DNA of 60,732 bases, taken from assembly GCA_005773635.1 (NCBI GenBank), contig SXHN01000066.1:1-60732 (forward strand), given 5' to 3'. The notes under the pieces are model-generated. The model saw only the letters and a list, made by a program, of their open reading frames with translations, was not told the origin of the DNA and searched no databases. Below, in pieces: positions 2,414 to 46,377 of the stretch. This stretch comes from Actinomycetota bacterium. GTDB lineage: Bacteria; Actinomycetota; Acidimicrobiia; IMCC26256; PALSA-610. Both the position numbers and the translations under genes were made by a program. The stretch's first letter is position 1. Every line of letters begins with the position of its first letter.

Positions 2414-3268
2414 ATGATCCACAGTCGCTTGTTCCCTACCATCGTCGCTTCCGGTGCCTTGGTGTTCGCAGCCTGCGGTTCTGATGCGAAAGTATCGCCG
2501 AAGGCGACTGAGAAACCGTCCGCCTTGATAACGACCACCACCACTGGTGCGCATGACGATGGTGGACATGGCGACGGACATAGCAAAGAGTCAGTCGACG
2601 ACCGCGGCTTTTCAAAACTCGAAAACGGCATGGAACACGGCTACGACTTCCCACAAGCAATTTCGAAAGCCGATCGAATAGTCCTCGCAGAGCAACTCGT
2701 ATTGGCGCGGACCACGGCGTTGCGATACCCGACGGTCAAAGATGCTGTTACAGCCGGGTTGCGCCGCGCAGGGCCGTTCTCTCCCGGTCTCGGAGCGCAC
2801 TACATCGATTACAGCAGCGCCGGCGGCAACGATGGCAGCCCGATGACGAACAACGACATCGAACATCCGCTTGCGTGGATCTACGACGGCAATCACCCAG
2901 ATTCGAGAATTGCGGGCTTGTTTTACACAACCTCGAGCGACGACCCTGAGGGTTTCGCTGGACCGAACGATATTTGGCATGAGCACCGCGATGTGTGCCT
3001 GGTCAACAACGGCAACGAAATTGACACACCGCTCGGCGCCGACCATTCAGCGACCAAACAAGAATGCGACGCGGTCAAAGGCACCTTGCTGAAACAAACC
3101 TCGAAACTATTGCACGTTTGGGTCGTCCCCGGTTACGAAAGCCCCGAGGGTGTGTTTTCACACCTGAGTTCGACGATGACTTGCGACGACGGCACGTACA
3201 ACATGATCCCCGACGTGACGAAAATCGGCACCAGGAAGACACAGTGTCTCGACGGTACCGAGGGCTAA
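2414..3268 (+). CDS. Histidine-rich lipoprotein of unknown function
   Basis: A 284-residue predicted lipoprotein. The ATG at 2414 is chosen because AAGGAG lies just upstream (2403-2408) and the protein then begins with a signal peptide ending in the lipobox VFAAC, so the mature protein would be anchored by its lipidated cysteine. A low-complexity linker rich in Thr, His, Asp and Gly (GAHDDGGHGDGHS) follows, which could bind divalent metal. The globular part has conserved-looking segments (GLGAHYIDY, GPNDIWHEHRDVC) and several cysteines. I believe similar proteins exist in other actinobacteria, but I know of no function. It stands alone between the P450 gene and a convergent AIM24 gene. Confidence 0.7.
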   Translation: MIHSRLFPTIVASGALVFAACGSDAKVSPKATEKPSALITTTTTGAHDDGGHGDGHSKESVDDRGFSKLENGMEHGYDFPQAISKADRIVLAEQLVLARTTALRYPTVKDAVTAGLRRAGPFSPGLGAHYIDYSSAGGNDGSPMTNNDIEHPLAWIYDGNHPDSRIAGLFYTTSSDDPEGFAGPNDIWHEHRDVCLVNNGNEIDTPLGADHSATKQECDAVKGTLLKQTSKLLHVWVVPGYESPEGVFSHLSSTMTCDDGTYNMIPDVTKIGTRKTQCLDGTEG

Positions 3269-3310
3269 GGCGCAATCGGCTTGTAGTCGCTACCGAGAAA
3301 CGATCGCCGG

Positions 3311-4036
3311 TTAGCCGCGACCCAATAGTCCACCGACGATGCCACCGCCCGCACCAGAATTTCCTGTCCCAATTGCAGCGCCGAGCCACGAAACCAATTC
3401 ATTTGGGTTTCGGGTCTGTGTGTAGACCTCGCCCGGCCCGGTGAAATCAAATACAAACCCTTCGCCGCTCTTGAACGTTTGCACGAGCCCACCAGTGACC
3501 TTGCGAATTGCCATCTGAATCGTGTCTTGGTACGCGACCATGTGGCCTGTATCGACGGTGATGGTTTCACCTTGTGCGAGCGTCCATTTGTCAAGGGCGC
3601 CGTAACAGCCAAGCACGACTTCACCGGCGCCAGACGCCCGCACGACGAAGCCTCCTTCCGAGCCAAAAAGATTCTTGAACCCACCCCACTTGGTATCGAG
3701 TTCGACGGTCGCGGGCGACGCCAGCCATGAGCCCTTCGAAATCACCCATGATGCTCCCGGTTGAATCACCACGTTGATGAGGTCGCCCGGAAGCCGAGCC
3801 GCAACATCAACCCAACCTCCTTGTGCTGGAGCGTGATAAGTGGTCACAAAGAACGATTCGCCGCCCACTGCAGCGCGTTTCAGCGACTTCATCACTCCCC
3901 CTTCGGCTTTTGCCGAAAGCGTGACGCCGGCCGACATCGCCATCATGGCCCCGGCCTCAACACGGGCACTTTCACTCCCCACCAAATTCAGGCGCGCAAC
4001 TCCAAACGACGGGCCTTGACGCGTGACGATCTCCAT
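3311..4036 (-). CDS. AIM24/TIGR00266-family protein
   Basis: A 241-residue all-beta protein of the AIM24 (DUF124, TIGR00266) family. Recognisable parts are ESARVEAGAMMAMSAGVTL near the N-terminus, GESFFVTTY, the repeated Gly-rich turns, and a Gly-rich C-terminal tail (GTGNSGAGGGIVGGLLGRG) typical of the bacterial proteins. The biochemical role of the family is not known; some members are linked to membranes. The ATG at 4036 is preferred over an upstream in-frame ATG at 4096 because GAGGAGAGA sits at 4041-4049. It follows pilC on the same strand with a 92-base gap, so it may be co-transcribed. Confidence 0.85.
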   Translation of the reverse strand: MEIVTRQGPSFGVARLNLVGSESARVEAGAMMAMSAGVTLSAKAEGGVMKSLKRAAVGGESFFVTTYHAPAQGGWVDVAARLPGDLINVVIQPGASWVISKGSWLASPATVELDTKWGGFKNLFGSEGGFVVRASGAGEVVLGCYGALDKWTLAQGETITVDTGHMVAYQDTIQMAIRKVTGGLVQTFKSGEGFVFDFTGPGEVYTQTRNPNELVSWLGAAIGTGNSGAGGGIVGGLLGRG

Positions 4037-44306: not shown

Positions 44307-44468
44307 CACGACCACCATCTTCCCGTGGTCGCGATCAACTAACGACGGCGTGAGTAAACCACGACCACCGCCACCCAACCACCCTCCCGTGGTCGCGATC
44401 AACTAACGACGGCGTGAGCGAATCACGACCACGGGCCACGGGTCGCCGGCCACGGGTCGCGGGCCACG
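44307..44468. repeat. Intergenic tandem inverted-repeat array before the amidohydrolase genes
   Basis: Two 48-base copies (44321-44368, 44385-44432; 64-base period, four mismatches) each holding CGTGGTCGCGAT at one end and CACGACCAC at the other. A further CACGACCAC is at 44307-44315. A 14-base unit GGCCACGGGTCGCC then repeats 2.5 times (44434-44468). No gene lies in this 264-base gap. Confidence 0.9.
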
Positions 44469-44506: not shown

Positions 44507-45394
44507 ATGGTCGATTGCATGGTGATGCCCACAGACATCGGCGTGATTGATTTGATGATCGGCTTCCCGATCGACGACCGCCGCCACTACTACGAGTTCC
44601 TCAAACCACAACTGCACGACAGGGAATCGAGAGAAGATTTCGAGTTCCCCGCGCAGTACATGTTCAAAGAGCCGCCGCATTTCGACGAGAGCGCAGACCC
44701 AATCGATCACCTCGTCGAGTTGATGGATCACTACGGCATCGCCAAGGGCATGATTGGCGCGCAAAAGGTCGGCGACCAGGGATACACGGCGATCAAACGT
44801 CACCCTGATCGGTTCTTCGGTTCGCTAGAAATCGACGCCAATCGCGGAATGGAAGCTGTGCGCGACATCATTCGTGCCCGTGACGAAGTAGGCATCAAAG
44901 CAGTCACGGCGTTTCCTGCCGGCATGAATCCGCAGGTGCCAATCAACGACAAGAAGATGTTTCCGATCTACGCGAAGTGCGTCGAACTCGACCTGCCGAT
45001 CTGCGTCTGCGCCGGAGTGCCCGGGCCACGAGTGCCGTTCGCGCCCCAATACGTCGGTCTCATCGATGAAGTGTGCTGGTACTTCCCCGAGTTGAAATTC
45101 GTCACCCGCCACGGCTGCGAGCCGTGGGCCGACCTCGCGGCGAAGCTCCTGTTGAAATGGCCCAACCTCTACTACTCCACCAGTGCGTTCGCCCCCAAGC
45201 ACTACCCGAAGGACATCATCAATTTTGCCAACACCCGCGGCGCCGACAAGGTGATGTACGCGGGTTATTTCCCGATGGGTTTGTCACTCGAACGCATCTT
45301 TACCGAAATGCCGAACGTAGCGTTTCGCGATCACGTGTGGCCAAAGTTTCTCAACGAAAACGCTCGGCGGGTGTTCAAGCTAGATGAAGCATGA
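44507..45394 (+). CDS. Amidohydrolase-2-fold protein, paralogue A
   Basis: A 295-residue TIM-barrel protein of the amidohydrolase-2 (PF04909) family, with FEFPAQYMFKEPP, FVTRHGCEPWADLAAKLLLK, YYSTSAFAPKHYPKDII and FRDHVWPKFLNENARRVF. The N-terminal metal motif HxH is replaced by IDLMIGFP, and the C-terminal SDYP-type Asp by MYAGYFPMG, so the usual metal site looks dismantled, leaving only H of TRHGCEPW. It may still hydrolyse or act as a decarboxylase-like scaffold. Start may be ATG 44507, 44519 or 44525. Paralogue B follows with debris between. Confidence 0.82.
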   Translation: MVDCMVMPTDIGVIDLMIGFPIDDRRHYYEFLKPQLHDRESREDFEFPAQYMFKEPPHFDESADPIDHLVELMDHYGIAKGMIGAQKVGDQGYTAIKRHPDRFFGSLEIDANRGMEAVRDIIRARDEVGIKAVTAFPAGMNPQVPINDKKMFPIYAKCVELDLPICVCAGVPGPRVPFAPQYVGLIDEVCWYFPELKFVTRHGCEPWADLAAKLLLKWPNLYYSTSAFAPKHYPKDIINFANTRGADKVMYAGYFPMGLSLERIFTEMPNVAFRDHVWPKFLNENARRVFKLDEA

Positions 45395-45406
45395 TTGCAG
45401 AGTGAA

Positions 45407-45487
45407 ATGCCAAGCGTTCCAGTGTCCGATCACGTATGGCCCAAGTTTCTTCGGGAAAACTCCCAGAAAGTATTCAAACTCTCATGA
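45407..45487 (+). pseudogene. 3-prime remnant of a third amidohydrolase-fold paralogue
   Basis: From ATG 45407 the frame reads MPSVPVSDHVWPKFLREN and eight more residues to a TGA. This matches the extreme C-terminus of both neighbours (MPNVAFRDHVWPKFLNEN; LPNVAFRDHVWPKFLREN), so it is the last 26 codons of a lost third copy. Its TGA (45485-45487) overlaps the ATG of paralogue B (45484) as ATGA, so it may now act as a coupling leader ORF. Confidence 0.9.
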
Positions 45488-46377
45488 CTGACGCACCAAA
45501 GAACAAGGCCTTCGAGGCGGCACGCGCCGACGGCGTAATCGACACCTTCCTCGGGTTCCCGGCACCGCGCGCAGAACAGGCCAAGAAGTTCGATTTCATT
45601 CGGGCGATCAGCAACGACAAAGAAACCCAAGAAATGGAGTTCCCTGCGCAATACATGTTCAAAGACAAGCCAATCTACGAAGAACTCGATGATCCAGTGT
45701 CGGAGACGCTCAAGCTCATGGACAAGCACGGAATCATGACCATGCTGCCGGGCATTGCCGAAAACGAGTCAGCGCGGCGTGCGTGCAGTGAGTATCCCGA
45801 CCGCTTCAAGGGCATGGCGAACGTCGACCCGAATACGGGCATGGAAGGCATACGAACCCTCGAGCGTGCGGTGAGAGAGGATGGCGCGATCGCGGCGCAC
45901 ACATGGGGCGCAGGACTCAGCCCTCAAGTCGCCACGAACGACAAGAAGATGTATCCCATCTACGCGAAGTGTGTTGAACTCAACATTCCTATCTTCATCT
46001 ACGCCGGTGTTCCCGGGCCGCGCATTCCCTTTCAGCCCCAGATGGTGGAACACCTCGATGAGGTGTGCTGGTTCTTTCCGGAACTGAAGATCGTGACTCG
46101 CCATGGTGCAGAACCGTGGACCGCGTTGATGTGCAAGCTGTTGTTGAAGTGGCCGAATCTCTATTACTCAACGAGTGCCTTCGCCCCGAAGCATTACCCG
46201 CAAGACATCATCCATTTCGCCAACACCCGCGGCGCTGACAAGATCTTGTACGCCGGGTATTACAGCGCGGGCCTGCACTTGGATCGCATCTTCGAGGAAT
46301 TACCCAACGTCGCGTTTCGAGATCACGTGTGGCCAAAGTTCTTACGCGAAAATGCGCAACGAGTGTTCAACATTTAA
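45484..46377 (+). CDS. Amidohydrolase-2-fold protein, paralogue B
   Basis: A 297-residue paralogue of the preceding gene with the same landmarks (MEFPAQYMFKDKP, VTRHGAEPWTALMCKLLLK, YYSTSAFAPKHYPQDII, YAGYYSAGLHLDRIFE). It too lacks the N-terminal HxH (VIDTFLGFPAP) and the C-terminal metal Asp. The start is ATG 45484, overlapping the vestigial frame; an ATG at 45436 is in frame but reads through the remnant in a different register. Tandem duplication with loss of a middle copy is the simplest history. Function unknown; proximity to thiolase/DUF35/CoA-transferase genes suggests acyl-CoA or sterol catabolism. Confidence 0.83.
   Translation: MTDAPKNKAFEAARADGVIDTFLGFPAPRAEQAKKFDFIRAISNDKETQEMEFPAQYMFKDKPIYEELDDPVSETLKLMDKHGIMTMLPGIAENESARRACSEYPDRFKGMANVDPNTGMEGIRTLERAVREDGAIAAHTWGAGLSPQVATNDKKMYPIYAKCVELNIPIFIYAGVPGPRIPFQPQMVEHLDEVCWFFPELKIVTRHGAEPWTALMCKLLLKWPNLYYSTSAFAPKHYPQDIIHFANTRGADKILYAGYYSAGLHLDRIFEELPNVAFRDHVWPKFLRENAQRVFNI

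Follow-up and report, generated by a model that had tools for sequence, protein, structure and literature searches.

Partial deletion pseudogenes are a feature of tandem paralogue arrays, in which a truncated copy lies between intact paralogues and complete orthologues occupy the same site in sister genomes. Coupling leader ORFs, which precede operon genes and are used in bicistronic designs, consist of a short translated frame with a stop codon that overlaps the real gene's start. For adjacent genes, termination-reinitiation coupling has been described at 4-nt overlaps (PMC6728339, PMC10666635).

The locus analyzed here, part of a 60,732-nt stretch of DNA (hereafter, the window), shares traits with each of these systems. 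Like a partial deletion pseudogene, it holds a truncated paralogue between two intact ones, with complete orthologues at this site in related genomes; compared with such pseudogenes, however, the scar is unusually clean, in that nothing but the gene's two ends is kept and both overlapping junctions survive. Its ATGA stop-start overlap is that of termination-reinitiation pairs, but the upstream frame is the tail of a dead gene and coupling is predicted from sequence. Finally, the stop-start layout is the same as in the coupling leaders of bicistronic designs, whereas translation of the scar and a regulatory role are only putative. We conclude that the fragment is very probably the deletion scar of a three-gene array (A-M-B) whose junction to the last gene was kept; its likely effect as a ribosome relay is much less certain than this history.

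Two amidohydrolase paralogues and the frame between them

Paralogues A (44507–45394, plus strand; Pfam E-value 1.3e-21, A clade in the tree below) and B (45484–46377, plus strand; 3e-26) stand in tandem and share 58% protein identity. Both belong to PF04909 (Amidohydro_2), exceeding its gathering score of 26.4 bits with 78 and 93.3 bits, respectively. Relative to G001—the only other genome of the genus compared—A is 94% and B 87% identical to its counterpart. While the exact start of A is uncertain among the ATGs at 44507, 44519, and 44525, that of B at 45484 is backed by the same start position in G001's B (MTESTVNEAFEAARADG versus MTDAPKNKAFEAARADG). NCBIfam contained no family naming A, B, or the third paralogue M introduced below, and an H-x-H motif was not seen in the first 60 residues of A and B, unlike in typical metal-dependent Amidohydro_2 members. 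By sequence, the nearest solved structure to B is that of the uncharacterised BB4693 (3irs). The DNA upstream of A, between this gene and a divergent thiolase gene, holds a ~50-base stretch (CCCGTGGTCGCGATCAACTAACGACGGCGTGAG...) repeated at least twice (44320–44430).

The frame between A and B spans 45395–45487 from a TTG to a TGA and encodes 30 aa (LQSEMPSVPVSDHVWPKFLRENSQKVFKLS), or 26 codons when counted from the ATG at 45407. Recognisable homology begins not at 45395 but at 45404 (GAA ATG CC), and we annotate 45404–45487 (plus strand) as the last 27 codons plus stop of M, open throughout, based on homology, a diagnostic residue combination, and position. Its TGA (45485–45487) overlaps the ATG of B (45484–45486) as ATGA (45484–45487, plus strand), a −4 overlap within the very short spacing of coupled pairs. 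In whole-genome searches, the fragment was matched by B (E 5.5e-6; 65% over 26 aa) and, more strongly, by the M protein of G001 (E 1.2e-7; 78% over 27 aa, M residues 282–308), so the likeness is not due to chance. The frame, its coordinates, and these searches thus bear out the preliminary description of a 26-codon C-terminal Amidohydro_2 tail between A and B, with its stop overlapping the B start as ATGA.

Upstream of the tail, the stop codon of A overlaps an ATG at 45391 (again as ATGA) that opens a frame of only four codons before a stop (ATG ATT GCA GAG TGA; 45391–45405, plus strand). The same overlap is present in G001, and we regard this stretch, which includes ATTGCAGAG, as the probable 5′ end of the lost M, an assignment made from the start overlap. 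Altogether, the scar measures 97 bp versus 930 bp for the M gene of G001.

The third gene in relatives and the origin of the fragment

A complete M lies between A and B in G001 (locus L115) and in four genomes of the same family (G002, G003, G009, and G013). In the family genomes the order is simply A-M-B; in G001, two ABC transporter genes (~2 kb together) come after A and M (3081–4010) and before B. In a tree of 57 proteins, M formed a clade of its own (15 rows; support 100/100), distinct from both other paralogues, and each of the window's two genes paired with its G001 counterpart. The flanking thiolase and SDR genes likewise correspond between the window and G001. In the window's own genome (95% complete), M was not found elsewhere: beyond A, B, and the fragment, the G001 query matched a single relative at 34%. 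Intact M in relatives, together with its absence here, argues that the ancestor possessed the gene at the A-B site and that it was lost in this lineage. The earlier proposal that the array once had three copies is therefore upheld, and the check suggested with it—a search of relatives for a complete third gene at this place—returned one in all five genomes named.

The ancestor accordingly carried three tightly packed tandem genes, with the stop of A overlapping the start of M and the stop of M overlapping the start of B. As the relatives compared show, roughly 830 bp of M were then lost in the window's lineage, leaving approximately the start codon region and the last 27 codons with their stop, and the M/B junction passed through the deletion unchanged.

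Arrays elsewhere differ in composition. A further family genome, G006, also misses M, yet here A and B are joined with no remnant and the GTG start of B lies one base after the stop of A. Among families, gene order varies between A-M-B, A-B-M, A-C-M, and A-B-C-M (L117, L119, L125, L126, L128, L129, L131, L132, and L134), some arrays including genes of a fourth paralogue clade (C). Order is reshuffled between families with tight stop-start spacing mostly kept. The two genes between M and B of G001 (L115:4121–6015) encode the ATPase of an ABC transporter and a membrane protein. In the same genome, the ATG of B is immediately preceded by TAGGGT plus 8 nt, similar to the −10 element of leaderless actinobacterial promoters; B may therefore have acquired a promoter of its own there. 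In G030 (L127:2456–3368), frameshifts (or sequencing errors) seem to interrupt A, the next paralogue being intact. Two public metagenome-assembled genomes with the array (L043 and L048) carry the title Bifidobacterium breve, yet their matches are Acidimicrobiia relatives, and the names look wrong.

A scan of 121 tail motifs across the window and ~88 loci retrieved the window's tail as the only isolated one, other short tails running off contig ends or sitting in a frameshifted gene (L127); the scar is hence known from one genome.

Position is the main argument for the fragment's derivation from M. Over its 81 bases, the tail is 73% identical to the M of G001 and 74% to the A of one other relative; identity falls to 70% for G001's B and 67% for A, so the nucleotide sequence agrees with this origin only weakly and would not be decisive alone. 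These narrow differences, and the fact that the fragment carries on A's own frame past the stop of A, would also be expected had the tail of A (or B) been duplicated locally. We nevertheless consider such a duplication very unlikely: M occupies exactly the A-B site in five relatives, the old M/B ATGA junction comes straight after the fragment, and the fragment carries ENxQ(R/K)VFKL, M's combination in the family, which none of the family's A or B tails shows (the Q being absent from A tails and the VFKL from B tails), while A's DEA end is missing. Duplication of the A tail was rejected mainly on position and on this combination. It is also highly improbable that M is present in the organism and was collapsed or skipped during assembly, a conceivable error in a draft genome of 125 contigs with tandem paralogues, given that the paralogues differ by >25% in DNA, that no piece of M turned up elsewhere in the assembly, and that the tail has a sequence of its own, copied from neither A nor B.

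The junctions themselves can be traced to relatives. In G001, the A/M junction reads GCATGA (the stop of A overlapping the start of M, which begins ATG AGC GAG), and the window still reads GCATGA; the M/B junction is ATGA in G002 and G003, and TCATGACTGA is kept at the start of B in G001 despite the transporter genes between M and B. The fragment's ATG at 45407 is the codon for Met in the EMP motif of M. Across the arrays compared, the 4-bp overlap is the common junction and predates the deletion. Simulation of 4–17 random changes left a frame this short stop-free in 55–84% of cases, so 27 open codons are expected anyway. The preliminary description had read the ATG, the clean frame, and the ATGA overlap as evidence of co-option for translating B, an argument that does not survive this comparison, since all three features were inherited from M and did not arise for co-option. 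Mechanically, the scar could serve in translating B; the claim of co-option, though, goes beyond the evidence.

Translation of paralogue B and the present role of the scar

The stop of A and the ATG of B are separated by 89 nt. In E. coli reporters, reinitiation was cut by 80–90% or abolished at an intergenic distance of +38 nt, and in Haloferax reporters it was abolished at about 22 nt (PMC10666635). Against these distances, direct reinitiation from A to B appears improbable. For coupling as such, the last 15 nt of the upstream gene were reported to be sufficient (PMC10666635). We found no Shine-Dalgarno-like match at normal spacing before B and no sigma-70-like promoter in the region, and the predicted RNA folding of the A-B stretch was no better than that of shuffled sequences (z 0.63), with no sign of a structured coupling element.

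The layout of the scar would, however, allow a stepwise relay—A, −4, MIAE*, +1 nt, fragment, −4, B—in which a frame opening at the ATG at 45391 closes at the TGA at 45403–45405, the next ATG follows one base on (45407), and the fragment then leads to the ATG of B. Ribosomes ending A would re-start on the scar and finish at the start codon of B, which would thereby stay coupled; the scar peptide itself would be without function. We simulated deletion breakpoints within M from six relatives and scored a relay when a stop in the M start frame lay close to an ATG in the tail frame. Such an ATG relay, as seen in the window, arose at only 0–0.6% of breakpoints. This rarity (<1% of breakpoints) is suggestive of possible selection against polar, B-silencing deletions, but comes from one genome and was noticed after the fact.

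With respect to the encoded peptide, the tail differs from the M of G001 by 9.2 nonsynonymous and 12.8 synonymous changes (dN 0.16, dS saturated; 27 codons), as compared to 3.0 and 3.3 nonsynonymous differences for the tails of A and B versus G001. Two of the substitutions, F to V and R to S, affect near-invariant sites (F in 110/121 tails, and R or K in 115/121). Small as the sample is, this excess of nonsynonymous differences and the changes at conserved positions fit a peptide no longer under selection. Dating the loss of M by dN/dS is ruled out by the 27 codons and the saturated dS to G001.

Two readings of the scar's present role both accept the deletion history. It may be a neutral remnant, B being translated independently and the ATGA being a leftover of the old junction—a reading to which we give somewhat less than an even chance. 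The drift of the peptide at near-invariant sites, its roughly threefold nonsynonymous difference over the A and B tails, and a frame expected by chance alone to be stop-free all agree with it; the missing Shine-Dalgarno-like match and sigma-70-like promoter, and the improbability of direct coupling from A over 89 nt, speak against it. By contrast, co-option proper would mean that selection kept the frame and start of the scar, B depending on ribosomes passing through it, and that relay-breaking deletions were lost. This we hold to be rather unlikely, notwithstanding the scarcity of ATG relays among simulated breakpoints, the lack of a Shine-Dalgarno-like match for B, and the fact that most adjacent pairs of these arrays place the next start no more than about 8 nt from the stop before it. 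Once GTG and TTG are allowed as starts, 6–41% of simulated breakpoints yield a relay and a further third or so keep M's frame; the RNA folding is unremarkable; two genomes (G034 and G047) have an A-B spacing of 22 nt with no scar; and, as stated, the pattern was recognized post hoc in one genome. The full scenario, in which a deletion was filtered by selection and ribosomes are now relayed through the two ends of the dead gene (from A via the 4-codon and 26-codon frames to B), so that B stays translated, is a conjecture from the sequence layout that we judge unlikely.

Taken as a whole, the locus is mostly an ordinary gene-loss scar, to which a testable relay hypothesis is attached. It cleanly illustrates the loss of a central gene from a coupled tandem array with the junction to the following gene left intact. 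Should the relay be used, this would show that a gene's end can keep its coupling role after the gene is gone, and natural operon deletion scars would be worth searching for selection against polar effects.
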